Shown here: positions 24,701-36,205 of the stretch, piece by piece
Position numbering within the stretch: the stretch's first letter is position 1
How the letters are laid out: every line of letters begins with the position of its first letter
Source of the DNA: Alistipes sp.
GTDB lineage: Bacteria; Bacteroidota; Bacteroidia; Bacteroidales; Rikenellaceae
DNA: 64,000 bases
Assembly: GCA_022767745.1 (NCBI GenBank)
Contig: JALENN010000005.1
Location: 248,001-312,000 of the forward strand
Direction: 5' to 3'
Notes under the pieces: generated by a model
Told to the model about the DNA's origin: nothing
The model's input: the letters and a program-made list of their open reading frames with translations, nothing else
Databases searched by the model: none
Translations under genes and position numbers: made by a program

Positions 24701-24851
24701 GATGTGGAACTCGCTGGGTATGTCGGTGGCATGGGGTCTGTCGTTCTCGACGCTCATCACGCTGATCCTGATCCCGACGCTCTACACGTCGTTCGCCGTA
24801 CACGGTGAGAACCGCAGAAAGAAGAAGGAACTTAAAATGCAGCAACAGTAA
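21747..24851 (+). CDS. RND efflux transporter (AcrB/HAE1-like)
   Basis: A 1034-residue proton-driven inner-membrane pump with twelve expected transmembrane helices and two large periplasmic loops. Helix 4 carries IGMVVDNAIVVLENI, with the tandem acidic/Asn region of drug-type (HAE1) pumps rather than the metal-type VDGAVV form. The helix 10-11 region has GIVVNNGIVLVDYTN. The drug-type reading suggests lipophilic compounds as substrates. Its stop overlaps the start of the PII-like gene (TAATG). Confidence 0.95.
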   Translation: MNIYKSAVNNPISTILIFVAIAVMGLFSVTRLGIDLMPDIETNAIMVMTAYEGASAEDIENNVTKPLENSLNGVDHLKHITSASKENISVVTLEFEYGTDIDVATNDVRDKLDMVTTLPDGVNNPIIFKFSTDMIPILILGVTAEESMPGLYKILDDQVATSLARVSGVGTVSVSGIAQREIQVYCDPNKLEAYGLSIEAISEAIAAANRSTPGGTFDVGSNTYSLRVDQEFNDPSEMLDIVVGHNGTAPIYLRDVARVQDTVQERTQETFNNGEKGGMIVVQKRSGANSVAVAQGVQKQLKTIMPSLPSDVNIYTIVDTSENIISTVNSLRDTIATTFILVMIVVFIFLGRWRATFVVVFTIPISLLAALVYLLATGETLNVISMSSLSISIGMVVDNAIVVLENITTHVDRGSRPRQAAIFATKEVGVSVIASTLTTIAVFLPLTMISGMAGVLFNSLGWMVSITLTVSTIAAITFTPVLCSLMMKQNPTKAWFQGKIDAVMARFNNFYGGILNWCVHHRKTIFTGAIALFFGTLVGLGPKLSTEFFPVQDNARIGVTIQLPVGTAQEITRDLALEISDRFREAFPEIITVNLTEGQADTDNSFASMQDNGTHYISMNISLLKKTERERTLTEIGDGMRAILNEYPEIRTYNVNESGQRGGVSGQSSVDVEIYGYDFDTTDELAQQVSDMMRTLPGCSEVTISRDEYTPEYHVDFDREKLSLNGLDVTTAAMYLRNRINGSVNSYYREDGDEYDIRVRYDRQFRESIEDIENITIYNSQGQGIKVRDLGTVKEAYTPPTIDRKDRERYVTVSGVVAHGYAMGDLIAEVQAGMKDIDMPAGYIWNLGGTYEDQQDTFADLATLMALMIILVFVIMASQFESLTYPFVIMFSMPFAVVGVMIGLVTTNTPMGVMALLGVLMLMGIVVNNGIVLVDYTNLCRERGMGIYDAVVTAGRSRLRPILMTTLTTVLGMIPMAVGTGIGSEMWNSLGMSVAWGLSFSTLITLILIPTLYTSFAVHGENRRKKKELKMQQQ

Positions 24852-25144
24852 TGAAAGCGATATTTGTAGCGTGCAACCAGTCGATATACGACGAGGTGCT
24901 AAATATAATGAATGGTATGCAGATGCGCGGTTATACGGGCTGGGAGGAGCTTATGGGCTGTGGCAGCGCCACGGGTGAGCCCCACCTCGGGAACCATGCA
25001 TGGCCGACGATGAACTCGGCGCTGATTACCGTAACCGAGGACGAGAAGGTGGAACCCTTCCTCGAGAGCCTCCGGAAGCTCGACCGCGAGAATGACCAGC
25101 AGGGCCTGCGCGCCTTCGTGTGGGAGATCTCGGCAATGGTCTGA
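24851..25144 (+). CDS. PII-like (GlnB-fold) small protein in the efflux operon
   Basis: A 97-residue cytoplasmic protein. It starts MKAIFVACNQSIYDEVLNIM and contains a central GCGSATGEPHLGNHAWP and a C-terminal FVWEISAMV. The pattern of beta-alpha-beta segments with a central loop resembles the PII superfamily, in particular PII-like groups reported next to RND efflux genes. It lacks the uridylylated T-loop tyrosine context of classical GlnB. The start codon overlaps the RND stop by one base, so it is strongly coupled to the pump. A role as trimeric sensor of the pump or its substrate is inference. Confidence 0.72.
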   Translation: MKAIFVACNQSIYDEVLNIMNGMQMRGYTGWEELMGCGSATGEPHLGNHAWPTMNSALITVTEDEKVEPFLESLRKLDRENDQQGLRAFVWEISAMV

Positions 25145-25472: not shown

Positions 25473-26645
25473 ATGAAAAACAGAAAATTGCGAATGGGCA
25501 TGATCGGAGGCGGAAGCGATGCCTTCATCGGTGCCATACACCGTCGTGCCGCTCTTATGGAGAATGAGATCGAGCTCGTATGCGGATGCTTCAGTGTAAA
25601 TCCCGAAATATCGATCAGCTCGGGCCGTTCGTACTATGTGCCCGATAACCGAATCTATACCACCTGGGAGGAGATGCTCGACAAGGAGGCCGCTCTGCCC
25701 GAGGACGAGCGTATGGATTTCGTCACCATCGTTACGCCCAACCGTTTCCACTTCGGACCCGCCATGCGCGCCCTGGAGCTCGGTTTCAATGTTGTTATCG
25801 ACAAGCCCATGACCCTGTCGCTGGACGAGGCGCTGAAACTTCGCGACAAGGTTAACGAGACGGGCCTTACGCTGGCCCTTACGCACGTATACAGCGGTTA
25901 CCCCGCCGTCAAGGAGGCCAAGAAACGCATCGAGCGCGGCGATATCGGCCGCGTGCGCCGTGTCTTCGTCGAGTACTCGCAGGGCTGGCTTACGCAGCGT
26001 ATCGAGCTCAAGGGAGGCAATAACGCCGTTTGGCGCAACGACCCCAAGCAGGCCGGCAAGGGCGGCTGTGTGGGCGATATCGGTACCCACGCATGGCACC
26101 TGGCCGAGTATGTCACTGGCGGCCGCGTAACGGAGCTTTGCGCCGAGCTGCAGCATGTGGCCGAGGGCCGTCCCGTCGATGACGACGCTTGTGCATTCCT
26201 GCACTTCGACAAGGGCTTCACGGGCCTGCTGCAGGCTACGCAGGTGGCTACTGGCGAGGAGAACAACATCCGCCTGCGCGTCTACGGCGAGAAGGGCGGT
26301 CTGGAGTGGCGCCAGATGGAGCCCAATACCCTTTACATGAAGTGGCTCGACCGTCCCACCGAGGAGGTGCGCGTAGGTAACGGATACGGTTTCCTTACCG
26401 ATTTCGCAAAGCACAATACCCGTACGCCCGGCGGCCATCCCGAGGGTTTCATCGAGTCGTTCGCCAACATCTACCGCAACTTCGCATACACGGTGCGCGC
26501 CCGCTCGGCAGGCGAGACCCCGAGCGAGGAGTGGCTCGATTTCCCCACCGTCGAGGACGGCGTGCGAGGTATGCAGTTCGTCGAGACGATGGTTGCCGCC
26601 GGTTTCGATCGGGAGCAGAAATGGTATAAATGGATTGAGAAGTAA
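25473..26645 (+). CDS. Gfo/Idh/MocA-family oxidoreductase (cytoplasmic)
   Basis: A 390-residue NAD(P)-dependent oxidoreductase without signal peptide. The Rossmann start is MGMIGGGSDAFIGAIHR, and the family EKP motif appears as VIDKPMT. The C-terminal alpha/beta domain includes GGCVGDIGTHAWHLAEYV, containing the conserved D-x-x-x-H catalytic pair. The family oxidises or reduces sugars and inositols. The frame extends upstream to 25092, but the promoter and leader support the ATG at 25473. It is monocistronic, with its own promoter and terminator, and faces the same way as the exported homologue at 28522. Confidence 0.92.
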   Translation: MKNRKLRMGMIGGGSDAFIGAIHRRAALMENEIELVCGCFSVNPEISISSGRSYYVPDNRIYTTWEEMLDKEAALPEDERMDFVTIVTPNRFHFGPAMRALELGFNVVIDKPMTLSLDEALKLRDKVNETGLTLALTHVYSGYPAVKEAKKRIERGDIGRVRRVFVEYSQGWLTQRIELKGGNNAVWRNDPKQAGKGGCVGDIGTHAWHLAEYVTGGRVTELCAELQHVAEGRPVDDDACAFLHFDKGFTGLLQATQVATGEENNIRLRVYGEKGGLEWRQMEPNTLYMKWLDRPTEEVRVGNGYGFLTDFAKHNTRTPGGHPEGFIESFANIYRNFAYTVRARSAGETPSEEWLDFPTVEDGVRGMQFVETMVAAGFDREQKWYKWIEK

Positions 26646-26702
26646 TAACATGCCGCGCGCCGGCCTCGACGGTCGGCATGCGGCTTGAAATAGTGGTTTC
26701 AG

Positions 26703-26741
26703 GCAGCCGGCCGGCGTCTTTCGACGCGGTCGGCTGCTTTT
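26703..26741 (+). terminator. Terminator after the cytoplasmic oxidoreductase gene
   Basis: Arms of about 15 bp (with one bulge and one G-T pair) around TTTC, followed by TTTT, begin 57 bp after the stop codon. This is a standard Rho-independent terminator. Confidence 0.85.
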
Positions 26742-26778
26742 ATGTAAGAAAAATATTTTAATAAAATGTCCCGAAATA

Positions 26779-26809
26779 TTTGTCGCTGGTGAAAATTTTA
26801 CTACTTTTG
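26779..26809 (+). promoter_or_regulatory. Promoter of the NrfH-FGE cluster
   Basis: TTTG at 26779-26782, a 19-base spacer and TACTTTTG at 26802-26809 match the consensus. The predicted leader before the ATG at 26909 is about 90 bases and contains a 7-bp stem (CTCGGAC and GTCCGAG), so post-transcriptional control is possible. Confidence 0.7.
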
Positions 26810-26908
26810 ACGTAGATTAAGTTGTAGGCCTCGGACTGTCGCTCGCTTGAGGGGTGCGGGTGTCCGAGTGTCGGCGTGAATGCACTTTTTTTGTTTTTTG
26901 CAATTAAT

Positions 26909-28447
26909 ATGTCTAAATCAGGTAGTACAAAGAAATTTCTGCTTGTCGGCTTGGCCGGCCTCGTGGTCGGATTCTCGCTGATGATCCTTCTCAATTCGTT
27001 TTATGTAAAGAGCTCGTCAAACGAGGCGTGCATGATGTGCCACTACCATCCCGAGTCGGATGCAAGCTGGAAGCAGTCGATGCACTACAACAACGGCAGC
27101 GGCGTGAAGACCGACTGCGTGGAGTGCCACCTCCCGCCGAAGGGTTCGTTCGCATACTTCAAGGCCAAGGCCAAGACCGGTATGAAGGACGTATGGTCGT
27201 ATCTCACCAAGAAGAAGGAGGATATCGACTGGGACAGCAAGGGCGAATTGGAATATGCTACCAAGATCGTATACAACGAGTCGTGCAAGGAGTGCCACAT
27301 CAACCTCTTCCCCGAGGGTATTACGGATGACGGCGTGACGGCGCACCTCTACTACGAGGAGAACGAGGAGAAGCTCGACCTGCAGTGCATCAGCTGCCAC
27401 CTCGACGCCGGACACTACAACCCGAACTACCAGCACGGCCAGATGGCGGGCCTGCCGACGGCTACGGCCGCCGCAGCCGAGGTCTACACCGAGGCTACTC
27501 CCGTCACCGAATTCAAGAACTATACCGAGACCATCCCCGGCACGTCGGCTTCGCTTAAGATGGTTGCCATCCCCGGCGGCAGCTTCACCATGGGTAGCCC
27601 CGAGAACGAGCCTTTCCGCAACAGCGACGAGTCGCCGCAGCGCAGCGTGACCGTATCGCCCTTCTTCATGGGTGAGATGGAGGTTACGTGGGACCAGTAC
27701 TGGGCATTCTACGGCGAGACCATGTCGGAGGGCCGTATTTCGCCCGAGGAGGTCTATGCCAACAACTCGCGCGAGGATGTGGATGCGATAAGCGGCCCGA
27801 CGCCTCCGTTCGGATTCCCCGATCAGGGTTGGGGTATGGGCGAGCGTCCCGCAATCACGATGACGCACTATGCTGCCGAGACCTTCTGCCAGTGGCTGTC
27901 GAAGAAGACGGGCAAGAAGTACCGTCTGCCGACCGAGGCCGAGTGGGAGTATGCTGCACGCGGCGGCACCTCTACGCCGTACTTCTTCGAGGGTAGCCCC
28001 AAGAAGTTCACCAACGAGGGCTTCTGGAACGGTCTGTTCGGCGCCGACACCGCTGTCATCAACAGCTACGTGGTATATGTGAACAACAGCAAGAACCGCA
28101 CGCAGGAACCGTCGAAGATGATGGCCAACCCGTTCGGCCTGAAGAATATGCTGGGTAACGTCATGGAGTACTGCTCTGACTGGTATGCCGAGGATGCATA
28201 CTCGCAGATGCAGGACGGCGCAACCGACCCGAAGGGTCCCGCCTCGGGCGAGGAGCACGTCGTGCGCGGCGGTCTCTACAACGAGGATGCCGCACAGATG
28301 CGATGCGCCGCACGTGCCCACACCGAGCATGACGCATGGCTCAAGACCGACCCGCAGAACCCCAAGAGTATATGGTGGTACTCGGATATCAAGGGTATCG
28401 GCTTCCGCGTCGTGTGCGAGGTTCCCGAGGGCGTATCGGCACAGTAG
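26909..28447 (+). CDS. NrfH-like tetraheme cytochrome c fused to a SUMF1/FGE-like domain
   Basis: A 512-residue two-part protein. Residues 10-31 form one membrane anchor. Four CxxCH haem sites follow at C41-H45, C70-H74, C126-H130 and C160-H164, with NrfH-like context (CVECHLPP and a final CISCHLDAGH). This is the arrangement of the small subunit that passes electrons from menaquinol to nitrite reductase. Residues about 218-512 are a formylglycine-generating-enzyme-like domain (GGSFTMGSPENE, YRLPTEAEWEYAARGG, NMLGNVMEYCSDWY, GIGFRVVCE). The two copper-binding catalytic cysteines of true FGE are absent (GGLYNEDAAQMRCAAR), so this domain probably binds or scaffolds. No nrfA is adjacent. The start is MSKSGSTKK, 11 codons after an earlier in-frame ATG. 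The electron partner is unknown. Confidence 0.9.
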   Translation: MSKSGSTKKFLLVGLAGLVVGFSLMILLNSFYVKSSSNEACMMCHYHPESDASWKQSMHYNNGSGVKTDCVECHLPPKGSFAYFKAKAKTGMKDVWSYLTKKKEDIDWDSKGELEYATKIVYNESCKECHINLFPEGITDDGVTAHLYYEENEEKLDLQCISCHLDAGHYNPNYQHGQMAGLPTATAAAAEVYTEATPVTEFKNYTETIPGTSASLKMVAIPGGSFTMGSPENEPFRNSDESPQRSVTVSPFFMGEMEVTWDQYWAFYGETMSEGRISPEEVYANNSREDVDAISGPTPPFGFPDQGWGMGERPAITMTHYAAETFCQWLSKKTGKKYRLPTEAEWEYAARGGTSTPYFFEGSPKKFTNEGFWNGLFGADTAVINSYVVYVNNSKNRTQEPSKMMANPFGLKNMLGNVMEYCSDWYAEDAYSQMQDGATDPKGPASGEEHVVRGGLYNEDAAQMRCAARAHTEHDAWLKTDPQNPKSIWWYSDIKGIGFRVVCEVPEGVSAQ

Positions 28448-28521
28448 TGCCCGCCGCGGGTAATGAAACCAACCAACCTGAATACAGTTTGAAACACTTA
28501 ACTCTATAAACTACTACGATT

Positions 28522-29880
28522 ATGAGCAAGAGCAAGATCAGCAGAAAGGACTTCCTGTCGTATTCTGCACTTTTGGGCGTGACGAGCATGGTCGGTTCTT
28601 CGACCCTTCTCTCATCATGTAACGGAAACAAAGGTCCTGTTTATACCCCGCTGAAGCAGGCCGGCGAGTACTACGTTCCCGAGTTGCCCGACAAGGCAAT
28701 CGACGGCAAGGAGCTTAAGGCCGGTGTTATCGGTTGCGGCGGCCGTGGTTCGGGTGCCATCGTTGACCTTCTGACTGCCGCCAACGGCATCAAGGTTACG
28801 GCTCTTGGCGATACCTTCTCGGATCGTTTGGAGGGTCTTCGCAACAACCTCAAGGAGCACCACAACCAGGAGGTTCCCGCAGAGAACTGCTTCGTAGGTT
28901 TCGATGCATACAAGAAGGTTATCGACTCGGGTGTCGATTTGGTTATCATCGCAACGCCTCCCGTATTCCGTCCCGTACACTTCCAGTACGCTACGGAGAA
29001 GGGCGTTCACTCGTTCCTTGAGAAGCCTATCGCCGTTGATCCCAAGGGCTACCGTATGATCATGGCTACGGCAAAGCAGGCCAAGGCCAAGGGTCTGAGC
29101 GTAGTTACCGGTACGCAGCGTCACCACGAGCGTCCCTATGTTGAGGCATTCCAGAAGATCCAGGAGGGTTACATCGGTGAGATCACCGGCGGTAACGTTT
29201 ACTGGAACCAGAGCATGCTGTGGTACCGCGAGCGTCAGCAGGGCTGGAGCGACATGGAGTGGATGATCCGCGACTGGGTTAACTGGAAGTGGCTTTCGGG
29301 TGACCACATCGTGGAGCAGCACGTACACAATATCGACGTATTCCTCTGGATGTCGGGTCTGAAGCCCGTCAAGGCTACCGCCTTCGGTGCACGTCACCGC
29401 CGTATCACGGGTGACCAGTACGACCAGTTCAGCGTCGACTTCGAGTTCGAGAACGGTATCCACCTGCACAGCATGTGCCGTCAGATAGACGGTTGCAGCA
29501 ACAACGTGGGCGAGTACATCCAGGGTACCAAGGGTTCGTGGAACAGCTACAACCGCGAGATCAAGGACCTGGCAGGCAACGTTATCTGGAAGTATGACGA
29601 CGAGGCTGCCAAGGCCGCTTTCCAGCAGCACAACCCCTACGTTCTGGAGCACGTCGACTGGGTTAACCACATCCGCAAGGGTGAGGCTCACGACGAGGCC
29701 GAGGGTTGCGCAATCTCGTGTCTGGCCGGTGTGATGGGTCGTGAGGCCGCTTATACCGGTGCTACGGTAACCTGGGACGAGATGAGCGCTTCGGCTCTGG
29801 ACTACATGCCCGAGAAGCTGGAGATGGGTCCCATGGATATGTCGAAGTATGTCGTACCCGTTCCGGGCAGCGGCAAATAA
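28522..29880 (+). CDS. Gfo/Idh/MocA-family oxidoreductase, exported lipoprotein
   Basis: A 452-residue oxidoreductase with a Tat-like N-terminus (SRKDFLSYSALLG, RK in place of RR) and a lipobox ending LLSSC (C33), so it is probably in the periplasm. The Rossmann motif is GVIGCGGRGSG, and the canonical EKP motif is FLEKPIAVD. The catalytic histidine region is HIVEQHVHNIDVFLWM. Exported family members in Bacteroidales often keep tightly bound NAD and act on sugars or glycosides. Codon choice (many GTT, GGT, CGT, GCT) differs from neighbours and suggests high expression. It follows the haem protein after 74 bp; a terminator hairpin separates it from the cupin gene. Confidence 0.93.
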   Translation: MSKSKISRKDFLSYSALLGVTSMVGSSTLLSSCNGNKGPVYTPLKQAGEYYVPELPDKAIDGKELKAGVIGCGGRGSGAIVDLLTAANGIKVTALGDTFSDRLEGLRNNLKEHHNQEVPAENCFVGFDAYKKVIDSGVDLVIIATPPVFRPVHFQYATEKGVHSFLEKPIAVDPKGYRMIMATAKQAKAKGLSVVTGTQRHHERPYVEAFQKIQEGYIGEITGGNVYWNQSMLWYRERQQGWSDMEWMIRDWVNWKWLSGDHIVEQHVHNIDVFLWMSGLKPVKATAFGARHRRITGDQYDQFSVDFEFENGIHLHSMCRQIDGCSNNVGEYIQGTKGSWNSYNREIKDLAGNVIWKYDDEAAKAAFQQHNPYVLEHVDWVNHIRKGEAHDEAEGCAISCLAGVMGREAAYTGATVTWDEMSASALDYMPEKLEMGPMDMSKYVVPVPGSGK

Positions 29881-29899
29881 TCCGACTGGCGTAATATAG

Positions 29900-29945
29900 A
29901 AAAAGGGTGGAGCGGGAGCCGATGACTCCATCTCTGCCCTTTTTT
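29900..29945 (+). terminator. Terminator or attenuator between oxidoreductase and cupin genes
   Basis: Arms AAAAAGGG (29900-29907) and CCCTTTTT, with an inner TGGAG/CTCCA stem and a T-run, form a Rho-independent terminator inside a co-directional cluster. It could make expression of the downstream genes lower than that of the first two. Confidence 0.75.
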
Positions 29946-29962
29946 CATAACAAATACTCCGT

Positions 29963-30556
29963 ATGGGCGACCATCTGATGGCTGACAGGGCAGCGACCGA
30001 GCAGACGCGGACGGAAAGTCCCGTTGCCGGCGGCGCGATAGAGGTGCGGTTGGACGAGGGTGCCGGCAAGACCGAATTCTTCGACGACGATCTCTTCGCT
30101 ATGGTAGCGGAGCAGGCGCGGCGTTCACCGAGGCTGCGGATGAACTACAACTTTCACCGCACGACCGCCGATCCCGTAAACCGCCTGCTGAACGTTATGT
30201 ACCGCGGCAGCTATCTGCCCGTGCACCGCCACCTTGAGCCTGCGCGCAGCGAGACCTGCGTGGTCATGCGCGGCAGCGTCGGGGTTACGGTATATGACGG
30301 GCAGGGCGGCGTCGTCGCGCGGCGACGTGTCAGTGCCTCGGGGCCGTGTTGCGGTTTCGATATCGAGGCCGGCGTATGGCACGGGCTTGTAGTGCTGGAG
30401 GATGATACGGTGCTCTTCGAGGTCAAGCAGGGTCCTTATGCCCCCATTGCAGCTGAGAACGTGGCGCCGTGGACGCCGGACGCGGATGATGAGGCGGCCG
30501 TAGCGGAGTTCATAAAGAATTTGGAAACGGAATTTAACAAGTTGAAAGATGAATAG
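29963..30556 (+). CDS. WbuC-like cupin metalloprotein
   Basis: A 197-residue protein with a single cupin barrel (about 65-160). Metal-ligand histidines are in PVHRHLEPARSE, and a later histidine is in AGVWHGLVV. NYNFHRTTADPVNRLLNVM matches the WbuC-type N-terminal region. WbuC-like proteins occur near sugar biosynthesis genes; the reaction is not established. It has no signal peptide. The stop overlaps the start of the isomerase gene by 8 bp. The predicted Glu/Lys-rich C-terminus is probably a helix. Confidence 0.8.
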   Translation: MGDHLMADRAATEQTRTESPVAGGAIEVRLDEGAGKTEFFDDDLFAMVAEQARRSPRLRMNYNFHRTTADPVNRLLNVMYRGSYLPVHRHLEPARSETCVVMRGSVGVTVYDGQGGVVARRRVSASGPCCGFDIEAGVWHGLVVLEDDTVLFEVKQGPYAPIAAENVAPWTPDADDEAAVAEFIKNLETEFNKLKDE

Positions 30557-31454
30557 AAAAGAGTTTTTACAGCGATCATTGGCAGGTGCCGCTACGATAG
30601 CCGTAGCCGGTGCGCCTACGCAGCTTATGGCCGCATGCACGGCCAAGAAGGGCGGCAAGACCGAGCTCAAGCTGTCGTTCCAGGAGGGTATCGCCCCCGG
30701 AAACAGCCTGAACGAGAAGTTGGATTACATGGAGAATCTGGGTATCGTGGGACTGGAGCCCTGGGGCGGTGGTCTTGCAGACCGTGTCAACGAGTTCCAG
30801 CAGGCGCTCAAGGGCCGCAATATCAAGATTTCGGCCATCTGCGCCGGTTTCAGCGGTTTCATCCTTGCTGAGGATCCGGCAGTCAAGGCACAGTTCGACT
30901 CGACGATGCGCGACATCATCGCCGCAGCCGGTGAGCTGGGTTCGACGGGTGTGATCATGGTGCCCGCCTTCAACGGACAGAAGCCCTGCAAGCCCCATAC
31001 GATGGAGACGCGCAACTATCTTACCGAGCAGCTTCACGAGCTGGGTGAGTATGCCCTCAAGTGCGGTACGACGATTATCCTCGAGCCGCTGAACCGTGGC
31101 GAGGCATTCTACATGCGTCAGGTGGGCGATGCCGCTGCCATCTGCCGTGATTCGAAGAGCGCCGGCGTGAAGTGCATGGGCGACTTCTGGCACATGATGG
31201 AGGAGACGTCGGACTACGCAGCCTTCATGGCCGCAGGTCCCGAGTATCTGCAGCACGTACACGTAGCCAGCCGCGGCCGCCGCAGCATGCCGGGCGAGGA
31301 TGGCGAGAAGGATAACTACATCGACGGAATGCGCGCTCTGAAGGAGATGGGCTACCAGCACTATGTAAGCTTCGAGTGCGGCTCGCAGGGTGACCGCGAG
31401 CAGACCGTTCCTGCCGCCGTAGCCCTGCTGCGCGAGCAGTGGAAGAAGGCCTAA
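30549..31454 (+). CDS. Exported TIM-barrel sugar isomerase/epimerase-like protein
   Basis: A 301-residue protein of the xylose-isomerase-like TIM-barrel superfamily. Residues 1-30 form a Tat-like leader (NRKEFLQRSLAG) with a possible lipobox cysteine C30, so it is probably exported. Candidate metal ligands are the glutamate of TIILEPLNRGE, the D and H of CMGDFWHMMEE, the histidine of YLQHVHVASRG and the late glutamate of YVSFECG, the usual pattern for hydroxypyruvate isomerase/epimerase-like enzymes. It overlaps the cupin gene and precedes resB by 12 bp. An isomerase or lyase role on an oxidised sugar is inference. Confidence 0.87.
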   Translation: MNRKEFLQRSLAGAATIAVAGAPTQLMAACTAKKGGKTELKLSFQEGIAPGNSLNEKLDYMENLGIVGLEPWGGGLADRVNEFQQALKGRNIKISAICAGFSGFILAEDPAVKAQFDSTMRDIIAAAGELGSTGVIMVPAFNGQKPCKPHTMETRNYLTEQLHELGEYALKCGTTIILEPLNRGEAFYMRQVGDAAAICRDSKSAGVKCMGDFWHMMEETSDYAAFMAAGPEYLQHVHVASRGRRSMPGEDGEKDNYIDGMRALKEMGYQHYVSFECGSQGDREQTVPAAVALLREQWKKA

Positions 31455-31466
31455 ATATGACTGCCT

Positions 31467-32792
31467 ATGACCTTGGAATGGGGTTATAAAAGAGCTTTTC
31501 TGCGTTGTGCCTTACTATTCGTAGTGGGCACAACGTTGCAATTGGCGGTAGGTGATATCGACACCTCGCTGTTGCGTTACCCGTGGGGGCTTATCCTTGC
31601 GGTGAACTATCTCTATCTGTTGGTTGTGGCCTATGCCATGCGCGACAAGTGGCGCTGGCTGCGGCAGCTGGGCGACGACAAGGCGTGCATCTCGTCGCTG
31701 GCCTCGTTCGGCGTGATGGTCATCATCTTCGGACTCACGCGTCAGGACCCCCTGCGCGAGGGATGGGTCGGGGCCATGGGCTTCTCGCGCATGACGGCAT
31801 CGTGGCCGTTCAATCTGCTGCTGCTCTATTTCATGACCACGCTCGGTGTGCGCGTGGTGGCCGAGATACACCATCTGCGGCGTTACCGTGCCGCGGCCGT
31901 CATGACGCACCTCGGTGTATTCGTGCTGCTCGTAGCCGGCACCTTCGGCAGTGGTGACACGGTGCGCTGCATGGTCACGACGCATGTGGGTGAGCCCGTG
32001 AACGTGGGGCGCGACGATGCGGGCCATGAGGTGATGCTGCCCTTTGCGCTGACGCTCGACGACTTCTCGATGGAGGAGTATCCCGCGAAACTCTACCTGC
32101 TCGACACGCGGCGTGAGAAATCGTCGCGCGAGTTCCTGTCGGTGGAGGCCGAGGGTGCCGAGGCCGTGATCGACGGCTGGCGCATACGTGCCGACCATAC
32201 GCTCGACATGGCGGGCCATGTGCCCGGCGAGAGCGCGTGGCGCGCAATGAACCACATAGGAGCCGCCCCGGCCGTGTATGTGTCGGCCGAGAATGTGGCA
32301 ACGGGCGAACAGTTCCGCGGATGGGTGAGCTGCGGCAGCCATATATTCGAGCCGTCGTACCTGATGCTCGCCGACGGTATGGCCGTGGCCATGCCCCGCC
32401 GCGAGGCGAAGAGCTACCTCTCGCGCGTGAACATAATGGAGGAGGGTGGCGTGCGCCGCGATGTCGACATCGAGGTCAACCATCCGGCGCGAGTCGGTTC
32501 GTGGCGCATATATCAGGTGAGCTACGACATAGCCAAGGGCCGCTGGAGCGACACCAGCGTGCTGGAGTGTGTGCGCGATCCGTGGTACGGTGCGGCGCAC
32601 GTCGCGCTGTGGCTGCTGCTGGCTTCGGGTGTCGTGATGTTCGTCACGGCTGGAGGCCGCCGCGTGGCACGTGCTTACGACGGAGACAAGGGCACTGACG
32701 GTGCCGGTGACATGAATGGGGCCGACGGTGTCGTGTCGCATAAGGCTGCGGCCGCCAGACGCCGCGGCAGAGGAAAGGAGGTGAAACGATGA
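31467..32792 (+). CDS. ResB/Ccs1-family cytochrome c maturation protein
   Basis: A 441-residue membrane protein with hydrophobic segments near 10-28, 42-58, 75-92 and 140-158, a large periplasmic domain (about 165-370) and a final helix (about 375-400). The C-terminus is basic and cytoplasmic. ResB with CcsA forms system II, which exports haem and attaches it to CxxCH motifs. The gene overlaps ccsA by 4 bp (ATGA). Its placement after a tetraheme protein gene implies a dedicated role in maturing that cytochrome. Confidence 0.85.
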   Translation: MTLEWGYKRAFLRCALLFVVGTTLQLAVGDIDTSLLRYPWGLILAVNYLYLLVVAYAMRDKWRWLRQLGDDKACISSLASFGVMVIIFGLTRQDPLREGWVGAMGFSRMTASWPFNLLLLYFMTTLGVRVVAEIHHLRRYRAAAVMTHLGVFVLLVAGTFGSGDTVRCMVTTHVGEPVNVGRDDAGHEVMLPFALTLDDFSMEEYPAKLYLLDTRREKSSREFLSVEAEGAEAVIDGWRIRADHTLDMAGHVPGESAWRAMNHIGAAPAVYVSAENVATGEQFRGWVSCGSHIFEPSYLMLADGMAVAMPRREAKSYLSRVNIMEEGGVRRDVDIEVNHPARVGSWRIYQVSYDIAKGRWSDTSVLECVRDPWYGAAHVALWLLLASGVVMFVTAGGRRVARAYDGDKGTDGAGDMNGADGVVSHKAAAARRRGRGKEVKR

Positions 32793-33577
32793 CTACGTGG
32801 GATCAACTCTTGTGGTATGCGGCCGTAGCGGCCGCCTGTTGGGTTGCGGGAGCCGTTGCGGCATACCGCACGAAGCGGACGTGGGCCCCGGTGGCGGTGT
32901 CGCTCTGCGGCTCGGCCGTATTCCTGGCCTTCATAATCGGCATGTGGGTGTCGCTCGAGCGGCCGCCCATGCGTACGATGGGTGAGACGCGTCTGTGGTA
33001 TTCGTTCTTCCTCTCGGTTGCGGGCGTGGCCGTCTATGCGCGCTGGCGCTACAAGTGGATTCTGTCGTTCAGCAGCGTCATGTCGATAGTATTCGTCTGC
33101 ATCAACCTCTTCAAGCCCGAGATACACAACAAGTCGCTCATGCCGGCGCTGCAGAGCGTATGGTTCGTGCCGCATGTCATTGTCTACATGTTCTCATATG
33201 CGCTGTTGGGTGCCGTGACGCTCTTTGCCATCTATCTGTGGCTGCGGTCGTCGCGCCGCGAGCCCTCGGCCGACGAGATGGGCCTCTGCGACCACCTCGT
33301 ACGCATAGGCTGGGCGTTCCTCTCGCTCGGCATGGTGATGGGGGCGCTGTGGGCAAAGCAGGCGTGGGGCGACTACTGGACGTGGGACCCCAAGGAGACC
33401 TGGGCGGCGGCCACATGGCTCGGCTACCTGCTCTACCTGCACCTGCGGGCGGCGCGTCCGAAGGAGCGCAACGTGGCATTTGCCATAATCGTATTCTCGT
33501 TCCTGCTGTTGCAGATGTGCTGGTACGGCATCAACTACCTGCCTGCGGCACAGGGTGTGAGCATACACACATATTGA
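32789..33577 (+). CDS. ccsA: Cytochrome c biogenesis protein CcsA (system II haem transporter)
   Basis: A 262-residue polytopic protein with about eight hydrophobic segments. The haem-handling WWD-type motif WGDYWTWDPKETWAAATW lies at about 193-210. A conserved histidine sits in WFVPHVIVYMF, and another in the final segment near SIHTY. It pairs with the preceding ResB to deliver and ligate haem outside the inner membrane. In many Bacteroidales the pair follows nrfH-nrfA; here nrfA is missing. An 85-bp gap separates it from the glycosidase genes. Confidence 0.93.
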   Translation: MTTWDQLLWYAAVAAACWVAGAVAAYRTKRTWAPVAVSLCGSAVFLAFIIGMWVSLERPPMRTMGETRLWYSFFLSVAGVAVYARWRYKWILSFSSVMSIVFVCINLFKPEIHNKSLMPALQSVWFVPHVIVYMFSYALLGAVTLFAIYLWLRSSRREPSADEMGLCDHLVRIGWAFLSLGMVMGALWAKQAWGDYWTWDPKETWAAATWLGYLLYLHLRAARPKERNVAFAIIVFSFLLLQMCWYGINYLPAAQGVSIHTY

Positions 33578-33662
33578 TATCGTGACGGGCGGCGTGGCCT
33601 TCGGGCCGGTGCCGCCCGCCGTACGATAGGGTTCGGTGAAATATCTTTTTTACATTCGGAAG

Positions 33663-35183
33663 ATGATACGTTTTACAGCTATCGGCCTCCTTGCCTCGGT
33701 GATGGCGGGATGCTGCGGCCGTGGCCCCGAGAGCCTCGTGCCCGATACTCCCTCGGCTGCGCCCGATTACCTCTGCACATGGAACCTGCAGGGGTACGTG
33801 ACCAGTTACGTGAGCAACGAAATGATGCGCTATGCCATGAACGAGGAGAATATCTTCGGCGACGGCGAGTACTGCAACTGGGCGTCGCTCTATGAGCCCA
33901 TACGCGGCGACCTCTACTTCGTGATGGACGACTCGTGGGATATCCCACAGGACGAGAACGCGGCGGGCGGCAATCCCTATCTCGGTACCACGGAGTTGAG
34001 CGAGGACCGTTTCCCCTCGTTCCGCGGCGAGCCTGCCGAGCGCCTCAAGGCTCTCACGAAGCGTCTGAAACGCATGGGGTGGAAGGGCGCCGGCGGCTGG
34101 ATATGTGCCCAGAAGCCCGAGGCCTATGCCTCGATGAGCGAGGAGGAGTATTGGACCGACAGGTTGAAGGATGCTGCCGAGGCCGGTTTCTCGTACTGGA
34201 AGGTCGACTGGGGCCGTGATGCCACCAACGACGCATGGCGTCAGATGCTGACGCGGCTGGGGCACGAGCATGCGCCCGGACTGTGGATCGAGCACGCGAT
34301 GAAGAACGATTATGTGGTCTTCAGCGATGCCTTCCGCACCTACGACGTCGAGAATGTCATTGCCCAGCCCGTCACCATACAGCGTGTGGCCAACTTGCTG
34401 CCGTACAAGGCGCAGGAGGGGGCGCGCGGTATAATCAACTGCGAGGACGAACCCTACATCGCCGTCGGTTTGGGGTGCGCCATCGGCGTGATGCGCCATC
34501 CCTTTGCTGGCAACCTGCCCGACGGCCGTCAGGACGACGCCTTCCCGCCCGTGGGCCACAACTACAAGCGGTGCCTTGACGAGGTGGTGCGCGGCGTGCG
34601 CTGGCACCGCATAGCCGAGCCGTTCGCCGTGGATGGCGATTGTGCCGTCGACACGGTGCGTCTGGCCGATTCGTGGGAGCTGCACGAGAACGAGACGTGG
34701 AACAAGGGCCGTCAGGTAGGTACCGTGTTGCGCGAGAGCGCTCCGGCGCGTGTGAGCCGCCGCATGCCTCTGCCCGAGGTTGCCGACACGTCGGCGTCGC
34801 GACCCTTTGTGCTGGCGTCGCGTTATCCGAACGATGCGGTTGCCGTGGCTGCCATAGGACGCGCCATAGGCCGTGAGTATGTCACGCGTGCCGCGGCCGT
34901 TACGGTCGAGGGCAGCGACTGGGAGGCTCCCGTGGGTCTGTTCGGCCGTTTCGGCGAGGTGACCGTCGTATATCCCGATGCGGTGGATGCCGCTGCGGTA
35001 GAGGTGTGGGGGCAGGATCTGGCGGGTGATACGCCTGTGGAGATCACCTCCGAGGTGCGCATCGAGGGCAACCGTCTGGTCGTACCCGGTGAGGTTATCG
35101 ACCGCGTGGGTCTGATGTGTGCCAGCGAGGGCGACCTTTCGGCCCCGGGTATGGTGCTCAAGGTACGGTTGTCGGCTAAATAG
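33663..35183 (+). CDS. Putative clan GH-D (GH27/GH36-like) glycosidase lipoprotein
   Basis: A 506-residue exported protein with lipobox VMAGC (C17). An earlier GTG at 33636 would add nine residues before the signal, so the ATG at 33663 is used. VMDDSWD resembles the substrate-binding DD-W of alpha-galactosidases. YWKVDWG gives a nucleophile-like aspartate, and VFSDAFRTYDV a possible acid/base region; the C-terminal part (about 370-506) is probably a beta domain. The match is partial, so alpha-galactosidase is only the best guess and another TIM-barrel hydrolase is possible. It is 35 bp before the GH43 gene. Confidence 0.6.
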   Translation: MIRFTAIGLLASVMAGCCGRGPESLVPDTPSAAPDYLCTWNLQGYVTSYVSNEMMRYAMNEENIFGDGEYCNWASLYEPIRGDLYFVMDDSWDIPQDENAAGGNPYLGTTELSEDRFPSFRGEPAERLKALTKRLKRMGWKGAGGWICAQKPEAYASMSEEEYWTDRLKDAAEAGFSYWKVDWGRDATNDAWRQMLTRLGHEHAPGLWIEHAMKNDYVVFSDAFRTYDVENVIAQPVTIQRVANLLPYKAQEGARGIINCEDEPYIAVGLGCAIGVMRHPFAGNLPDGRQDDAFPPVGHNYKRCLDEVVRGVRWHRIAEPFAVDGDCAVDTVRLADSWELHENETWNKGRQVGTVLRESAPARVSRRMPLPEVADTSASRPFVLASRYPNDAVAVAAIGRAIGREYVTRAAAVTVEGSDWEAPVGLFGRFGEVTVVYPDAVDAAAVEVWGQDLAGDTPVEITSEVRIEGNRLVVPGEVIDRVGLMCASEGDLSAPGMVLKVRLSAK

Positions 35184-35218
35184 TGATAAGTCGTTGTTTG
35201 TTTTATACGGTCTGAACG

Positions 35219-36205
35219 GTGAAAAGCATATTGTTTCTAGTGATGATGTTTGCTGCGGCGGTGCCTTCGGCGCTCGCGCAGCAGCCTGCGGAGGGTGTTG
35301 CCGCCCGCGAAGGACAGCTGTTGCTGGCCGACCCTTTCATACTGGAGAACGACGGCTGGTACTATATCTACGGTACGCATGCCGATGACGGCATTGTGGT
35401 CTACCGCTCTCGCGACATGCGGCACTGGAGCGACCGTTGCGGCAACGCACGCAACGCGCTGGCGCTGCATAAGGACGACGTGTGGGGTGACCGCTTCTTC
35501 TGGGCACCCGAGGTATACAAGCTAGGGGAGGGGCGCTACCTCATGACCTACAGCGCCGAGGAGCACATCTGCTATGCCGAGTCGGATTCGCCGTGCGGCC
35601 CCTTTGTGCAGCGCGAGCAACGCCCCTACCTCGATGAAAAGGGTATCGACTCGTCGATCTTCTTCGACGACGACGGCACGCCCTATATGTTTTGGGTGCG
35701 TTTCACGGCCGGCAATGTGATATGGGTGGCGGAGATGACGCACGACCTGCACGAGGTCAGGCTTGAGACGGCGCGTCGCCTCATCGATGCGCGTGACGGT
35801 ACGTGGGAGCGTGTGCAGGCGCGTGTCGCCGAGGGACCGATGGTCGTAAAACATAAGGGGAAGTACTACCTTACGTACAGTTGCAACGACTACCAGAGCA
35901 AGGATTACGCAGTGGGCGTAGCCGTGGCCGACAACGTGATGGGACCGTACGTGCGTTGCGAGGGCAATCCCATACTGCACCGTCATGCCGGATATGTCGG
36001 CACGGGGCACCATGCGCTGCTGCGGGTGCGTGGCGGCAGGTACTACATAGTTTACCACGCCCATAACAGCGGGGCGAAGATACATCCGCGGCAGACGCTC
36101 ATTGCGCCGTTGGAGTTCCGTCGCGACCGTTCGGCCGGCGGCGACGTGTGGCGGATGGAGGTGTCGGAGAAGATAATCGTCCCGATGGTCGACAAGCAGC
36201 TTTAA
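35219..36205 (+). CDS. GH43-family glycoside hydrolase, secreted
   Basis: A 328-residue five-bladed beta-propeller enzyme with a signal peptide (KSILFLVMMFAAAVPSALAQ). The catalytic trio of GH43 is visible: base D in LLADPFI, pKa-modulating D in SIFFDDDG and acid E in VAEGPMV. Typical activities are alpha-L-arabinofuranosidase, beta-xylosidase or galactan hydrolases. The start is taken as GTG at 35219, because it gives a complete signal peptide. It is the last gene of the cluster and ends at a strong terminator. Confidence 0.88.
   Translation: MKSILFLVMMFAAAVPSALAQQPAEGVAAREGQLLLADPFILENDGWYYIYGTHADDGIVVYRSRDMRHWSDRCGNARNALALHKDDVWGDRFFWAPEVYKLGEGRYLMTYSAEEHICYAESDSPCGPFVQREQRPYLDEKGIDSSIFFDDDGTPYMFWVRFTAGNVIWVAEMTHDLHEVRLETARRLIDARDGTWERVQARVAEGPMVVKHKGKYYLTYSCNDYQSKDYAVGVAVADNVMGPYVRCEGNPILHRHAGYVGTGHHALLRVRGGRYYIVYHAHNSGAKIHPRQTLIAPLEFRRDRSAGGDVWRMEVSEKIIVPMVDKQL

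Follow-up and report, generated by a model that had tools for sequence, protein, structure and literature searches.

The 64,000-nt stretch of Alistipes sp. DNA analysed here (assembly GCA_022767745.1, contig JALENN010000005.1, positions 248,001 to 312,000; hereafter, the window) carries a conserved module of two genes, which is undescribed as far as literature searches show. The first gene encodes a NapC/NirT-family tetraheme cytochrome fused to a domain with the fold of formylglycine-generating enzyme (FGE) (26909..28447; hereafter, the fusion), and the second, gfo2, encodes a Gfo/Idh/MocA dehydrogenase (28522..29880). The coupling of the fusion and gfo2 is well supported. Together, the two proteins probably constitute a respiratory dehydrogenase that oxidises sugars or glycosides, probably at carbon 3, and delivers the electrons to menaquinone; we infer the substrate, the direction of electron flow and the hydride-to-haem step. 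A first-pass annotation of the window had proposed a haem protein coupled to an exported Gfo/Idh/MocA oxidoreductase within a larger locus. This core idea is strengthened, and as a whole partly supported, after being redrawn to two genes. The host assembly comprises 2.51 Mb and is 93% complete; the window lies on its contig C9, and uncultured Alistipes are its nearest named relatives.

Co-inheritance of the fusion and gfo2

The order sample contained 295 genomes, which were scored as fusion-bearing when the match exceeded 400 bits; gfo2 was counted at E 1e-80 or better. The fusion was found in 38 genomes and gfo2 in 39. All 38 fusion genomes hold gfo2, versus 1 of the 257 others (G160; Fisher P ~3e-47, a value which is too small because the genomes share ancestry). 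Genome G154, featuring the NrfH part only at a contig end (149 bits), was counted as fusion-negative. The fusion genomes span 20 different family labels, and both other sampled genomes of the window's own family have neither the fusion nor gfo2. The number of Gfo paralogues is underestimated, since the search scored 3–5 candidates per genome.

The two genes are also adjacent. In the close loci (the best 80 of 337 candidate relatives, taken from named genomes and counted with tblastn at any locus length), gfo2 follows the fusion in all 80, always on its strand and after 23–217 bp; contig ends cut three of these loci. Apparent exceptions at L032, L059, L072 and L086 are artefacts of the open reading frame (ORF) start, as tblastn places gfo2 directly downstream there. 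The order-sample loci consisted of 40 stretches, 37 with an intact fusion ORF (matches in G011, G137, G270, G248 and G043 were not included), and gfo2 is directly behind the fusion in 33 of the 36 with room for it. The exceptions are L132 and L133, with other Gfo genes in between, and L144, where gfo2 is ~9 kb away. Hence, the core of the system is shown to be two genes, the fusion and then gfo2, co-inherited in the order, and the coupling put forward in the first-pass annotation holds in 38 of 38 genomes.

ATG 26909 is the most likely start of the fusion gene, in preference to GTG 26876, since the alignments to most relatives begin near residue 12. The N-terminal half of the product is a NapC/NirT-family cytochrome: PF03264 is above its cut-off (87.1 bits), an N-terminal membrane helix is present, and four haem-binding motifs are found at 27029..27400, namely CMMCH (27029), CVECH (27116), CKECH (27284) and CISCH (27386). 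The four CXXCH motifs are kept in 112 of the 112 fusions examined. The fusion gene is the only PF03264 match in the whole assembly, and the NrfH half alone gave no significant match in a PDB sequence search. The NrfH equivalog TIGR03153 was not reached (68.1 bits vs. a cut-off of 134.2). The first haem motif is CxxCHxH and not CxxCHxM, with a His frequency of 1.0 in the 112 fusions and the window, while the Met is present in six canonical NrfH proteins from the order. The label "nrf-like" is thus not supported in the strict sense.

The FGE-fold domain (27557..28330; PF03781, 144.1 bits) carries the sequence DPQNPKSIWW, whose outline is common to stand-alone FGE partners of gfo2 homologues. The structure model of the fusion features an FGE fold and one long N-terminal helix. 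The domain has a PvdO-like fold, although the PvdO NCBIfam equivalog was not reached (98.9 bits vs. 500), and its fold matches include PorK and variable proteins of diversity-generating retroelements (DGR). The two catalytic copper-binding Cys of formylglycine-generating enzyme were not found in the segment after the GG motif, at what we take to be the catalytic and motif positions. With both missing, formylglycine generation by this domain was rejected.

The gfo2 product is a member of the Gfo/Idh/MocA family, with both PF01408 and the C-terminal domain above cut-off. The Rossmann glycines and the EKP motif are invariant. The N-terminus is Tat-like (twin-arginine translocation) and lipobox-like (RKxF, Cys33), and TatC is present in the genome. 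For its structure model (predicted local distance difference test score, pLDDT, 88.9), the best alignments were to DgpA, NAD-dependent sulfoquinovosidases and levoglucosan dehydrogenase, which were almost level. DgpA and levoglucosan dehydrogenase oxidise C3, and the NAD-dependent glycosidases recycle NAD. No GH109 family was found among the Pfam matches of gfo2, the idea of a GH109-type glycosidase having been checked at the Pfam level only, and no GMC family match was found among the nine locus proteins in Pfam or NCBIfam.

Stand-alone FGE proteins and apbE outside the order

In a sample of 395 genomes of the phylum, homologues of gfo2 were found in 61 (E 1e-80), a stand-alone relative of the FGE domain in three (E 1e-60) and the fusion in three, including the genome of the window and one outside the class (G637). 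In total, 58 stretches from outside the order (L178–L235) were studied. They were chosen by hand, not at random, and represent 56 of the 94 gfo2 matches, together with L179 and L180 (stand-alone FGE matches). Eight stretches without a gfo2 ORF above 200 bits were dropped: L179, L180, L192, L193, L214, L215, L222 and L231, in the last six of which ORF calling probably took wrong frames. The 50 stretches kept include one fusion locus, L181, leaving 49 non-fusion loci.

Of these 49 loci, 30 have an FGE gene no more than 3.5 kb from the gfo2 homologue, 24 a TIM-barrel gene, 21 apbE and 14 both FGE and apbE. Locus L189 was scored at its best gfo2 match, with no FGE gene near; a second gfo2 there has an FGE gene directly upstream and apbE. 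Counting L181, 31 loci bear an FGE gene; in 27 of them, this gene immediately precedes gfo2 and shares its strand. The stand-alone proteins have no haem motif (0/32) and mostly possess a hydrophobic N-terminus (26/32), and each part of their DPQ-PKS-WW signature is found in more than 90%. At L190 and L197, the stand-alone FGE gene is immediately preceded by a gene for a Tll0287-like protein with one CXXCH.

Of the 21 apbE genes, 13 are immediate neighbours of gfo2 and share its strand (L199–L204, L206, L210, L212, L221 and L233–L235; L212 and L221 were read from coordinates), with spacing from a 4 bp overlap to an 87 bp gap. The stretches hold 25 apbE matches in total, and the four beyond these 21 are farther from gfo2 or in dropped loci. 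ApbE was confirmed by Pfam in six of the six such proteins tested. The 120 loci L032–L151, 112 of them with an intact fusion ORF, yielded no apbE. In the gfo2 tree, apart from the exceptions given below, the fusion-linked sequences are separated from the FGE/ApbE group by a branch with 100% support in the Shimodaira–Hasegawa-like approximate likelihood ratio test (SH-aLRT). Because apbE occurs near stand-alone FGE–Gfo loci yet in no fusion locus, these data suggest that the FGE–Gfo unit has two alternative electron outlets, haem or flavin. Neither the frequent partnership of Gfo proteins with FGE proteins lacking a fused cytochrome nor the apbE companion was part of the earlier reading.

A different arrangement was seen at L160, where a gfo2 paralogue is located beside genes for a nine-CXXCH protein and a GMC oxidoreductase (Pfam), both on the opposite strand. 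This make-up resembles FAD-type glucoside 3-dehydrogenases.

Neighbouring genes

All nine genes listed by the first-pass annotation were confirmed in the window; they are oriented in the same, forward direction with short gaps. The fusion and gfo2 are separated by 74 bp, gfo2 and the cupin gene by 82 bp and the TIM-barrel and ResB genes by 12 bp; the cupin/TIM and ResB/CcsA pairs overlap. From the counts in the close loci and in the distant loci (order-sample loci with sufficient room; 31 downstream, unless another number is given), only the fusion and gfo2 belong to the core.

The most frequent companion is the xylose-isomerase-like TIM barrel (30549..31454; PF01261), matched in 76 of the 80 close loci and found downstream in 15 of the 31 distant ones. 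Its N-terminus appears, by eye, Tat-like and lipobox-like. The nearest PDB relative is 3kws (422.6 bits), followed by 6wn6, a 3-keto-D-glucoside 4-epimerase (75.2 bits). Genes for 3-keto-disaccharide hydrolase and ThuA were found in some loci, and the 3-keto-sugar theme of the earlier reading is borne out to that extent.

The other downstream genes are lineage-specific. These are the WbuC-family cupin (29963..30556; TIGR04366, 147.8 bits; 22/80 close, 0/31 distant), the ResB-like (31467..32792; PF05140, 50.1 bits; 57/80) and CcsA-type (32789..33577; 54/80) cytochrome c maturation proteins and the GH43 glycoside hydrolase (35219..36205; PF04616, 185.7 bits; 13/80 close, 0/31 distant). Thus, of the wider neighbourhood that had been proposed, the fusion/gfo2 part is conserved and the ResB/CcsA part is not constant. 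The product of 33636..35183 is a predicted exported protein without family assignment. It had been called a glycosidase, a name left unsupported because searches of Pfam, NCBIfam and PDB sequences gave no match, and the gene was matched in 1 of the 80 close loci. The glycosidase inventory is accordingly reduced to GH43, and glycosidases do not appear to be part of the system.

ResB and CcsA had also been regarded as the cytochrome's own maturation pair. CcsA is the sole PF01578 match in the assembly, but two further c-type cytochrome genes are predicted on contig C11, which makes a dedicated pair improbable. Contig C11 of the window genome (G000) carries a second cytochrome cluster at 30920–36005 (L152). 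Its first protein is MauG/CCP-like, with two CXXCH and beta-propeller matches. The second (1086 aa) has two CXXCH and ends in an FGE domain, preceded by a middle domain resembling hydrazine synthase alpha; it represents a haem–FGE fusion of a different make from that of the window.

Upstream of the fusion, the second Gfo/Idh/MocA gene noted earlier, gfo1, is present at 25473..26645. Its PDB sequence relatives are 3v5n, 3dty and 7d5m; it was matched in 18 of the 80 close loci and upstream in 3 of 37 distant loci. Since no signal peptide is evident by eye, the protein looks cytoplasmic, and gfo1 is possibly an accessory (keto)sugar oxidoreductase of the cytoplasm. Genes cydA and cydB (cytochrome bd oxidase) are located upstream of the fusion on the same strand in 7 of the 80 close loci (L035, L036, L037, L041, L042, L044 and L075; Pfam check on L036); one gene, of the endonuclease/exonuclease/phosphatase family, separates cydB from the fusion. 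In the window, a P-II-like protein (24851–25144) is encoded directly behind an RND transporter gene, an order kept in the nine close loci holding the transporter.

Proposed function and known systems

In the proposed mechanism, the Gfo protein would act in the periplasm and use tightly held NAD(P) to oxidise a sugar or glycoside, carbon 3 being the probable site of attack. The periplasm has no free NAD pool for a Gfo/Idh/MocA enzyme; therefore, the captive cofactor must be recycled by the enzyme itself. Such recycling is established for glucose-fructose oxidoreductase. Because captive NAD(P) presumably could not be recycled in the periplasm, the Gfo protein would dock on the FGE domain for re-oxidation. 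The FGE domain would serve as a docking and electron-exit module, and the haems would pass electrons to menaquinone, a direction which we infer and which is based on midpoint potentials. The TIM-barrel protein may epimerise or cleave the keto product, ResB and CcsA would attach the haems, and the cytoplasmic gfo1 product may reduce the imported keto-sugar. In the sister group, an ApbE-attached flavin would be the outlet in place of haem.

Several observations weigh against this scheme, besides the shared ancestry mentioned above. The hydride of NADH needs a flavin or metal before one-electron haems, and no flavin or metal cofactor site was identified in the fusion. Outside the order, 19 of the 49 non-fusion loci have no FGE gene within 3.5 kb and 28 have no apbE. 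The ApbE target motif D..[ST]GA[ST] is absent from the FGE, gfo2 and TIM homologues, and a looser flavinylation motif gave no exported candidate near apbE. The gfo2 of G160 is of the fusion clade, and that of L182–L185 in the phylum sample falls on the fusion side of the tree, although the genome searches, within their limits, found no fusion in these genomes. ResB and CcsA are lacking from all 31 distant loci with room. The Tat export of the gfo2 product is a prediction from sequence motifs.

Two other explanations keep the fusion and gfo2 together. Electrons might flow in reverse, from menaquinol to the haems and on through the FGE domain and Gfo2 to a keto-sugar or similar periplasmic acceptor. 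The N-terminal half does belong to the NapC/NirT/NrfH family, whose known members deliver electrons outward, NrfH and NapC supplying their reductases. However, the TIM barrel and the nearby 3-keto-sugar genes fit oxidation better, and menaquinol is, by midpoint potentials, too weak a donor for NAD(P)+; we consider reverse flow improbable. We also find it unlikely that the partnership is not redox at all, with FGE as a carbohydrate- or partner-binding module, Gfo2 as an NAD-dependent glycosidase without net electron flow and the cytochrome rescuing the NADH form of the enzyme or anchoring it. Proteins with an FGE fold need not catalyse the FGE reaction, PorK and the DGR variable proteins being examples, and Gfo2 aligns well with NAD-dependent glycosidases. 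Net electron flow is favoured, however, both by the four haem motifs, which none of the 112 fusions has lost, and by apbE, which accompanies 21 of the 49 outside genes.

A third explanation, in which an orphan or relocated NrfH serves a nitrite reductase elsewhere and lies among sugar genes by accident, is already contradicted and very improbable. It draws on the family resemblance and on the ResB and CcsA genes, which also follow the canonical nrfHA pair at L240. Against it stands the CxxCHxH motif where NrfH has CxxCHxM. In agreement with the first-pass annotation, which saw no nrfA at the locus, a genome check for nrfA (PF02335) found none in the assembly either; as the assembly is 93% complete, this absence is strong, not absolute. 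At E <1e-100, nrfA was found in 19 of the 38 fusion genomes and is missing from the other 19, vs. 100 of the 257 other genomes (P = 0.22), and does not track the fusion; the coupling is independent of it. The count of 119 genomes at this threshold compares with 140 at E 0.001 and 132 above the cut-off, and the fusion genomes G112, G131 and G248 have weak matches (~7e-4 to 8e-4). Canonical nrfHA is a separate pair in six of the seven fusion genomes looked at. An nrf locus with a lost nrfA was rejected on the same grounds.

The respiratory dehydrogenase thus remains the preferred reading. If it is true, electrons from sugar breakdown could enter the menaquinone pool straight from the periplasm, and so reach fumarate reductase or cytochrome bd. 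Genes whose sole annotation is "formylglycine-generating enzyme" or "SUMF1/EgtB/PvdO family" would also gain a role. The constant cytochrome partner makes electron disposal by the periplasmic Gfo/Idh/MocA dehydrogenases of gut Bacteroidota testable. A broader proposal, which we regard as tentative, is that this would be the first respiratory Gfo/Idh/MocA complex, with captive nicotinamide re-oxidised via an FGE-fold adaptor in two interchangeable ways, tetraheme-fused in Bacteroidales and served by ApbE flavin elsewhere; within a cell, several Gfo paralogues may share a single cytochrome. The combination had been suspected to be new, and no description of a cytochrome–FGE–Gfo system was found in the open-access literature searched, which is not proof of absence.

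Among known systems, Zymomonas glucose-fructose oxidoreductase recycles its cofactor with a second sugar and not with a cytochrome. NrfH and NapC share with the fusion PF03264, one N-terminal helix and four haems, and a Lys of the fusion aligns with the canonical NrfH Lys; the fusion is unlike NrfH in its score below the cut-off, the His at haem 1, the fused FGE fold and the lack of NrfA here. LacABC is a GMC flavoprotein with flavin and a cytochrome c subunit; the window system has a Gfo/Idh/MocA enzyme in its place, and LacABC has no FGE domain. LacABC with DUF1080 proteins in Caulobacter and Pedobacter performs membrane-bound periplasmic sugar 3-oxidation, with DUF1080 proposed for hydrolysis (PMC9007349), and is the closest in logic to the window system.

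In Bacteroides thetaiotaomicron, BT2158 is described as a periplasmic glycoside 3-dehydrogenase of the Gfo/Idh/MocA family (PMC11300592), and the BT2156–BT2160 cluster comprises the dehydrogenase, an isomerase/epimerase and a DUF1080 protein (PMC10434189). The clustering of a periplasmic Gfo/Idh/MocA enzyme with an isomerase/epimerase is similar to that in the window, whereas neither a cytochrome nor an electron acceptor is named in the passages on the pathway. The gfo2 product is also far from the BT_2158-type equivalog NF058561, which it does not reach (21.4 bits vs. a cut-off of 750). None of the six terms looked for is present in PMC11334425. MftG is a dedicated protein coupling the re-oxidation of a redox cofactor to respiration (PMC11778925), and represents a precedent in kind. 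The modular outlets reported in PMC8238504, where related extracytosolic oxidoreductases are tied to either a haem domain or a flavinylated domain, resemble the haem/ApbE split of the FGE–Gfo unit. The examples in the section concerned differ, being of the alcohol oxidase and fumarate-reductase types, and the words "sugar" and "formylglycine" are absent from the main text of that paper. An exchange of haem and ApbE around one enzyme pair would extend this modular cytochrome/flavin idea to nicotinamide enzymes.

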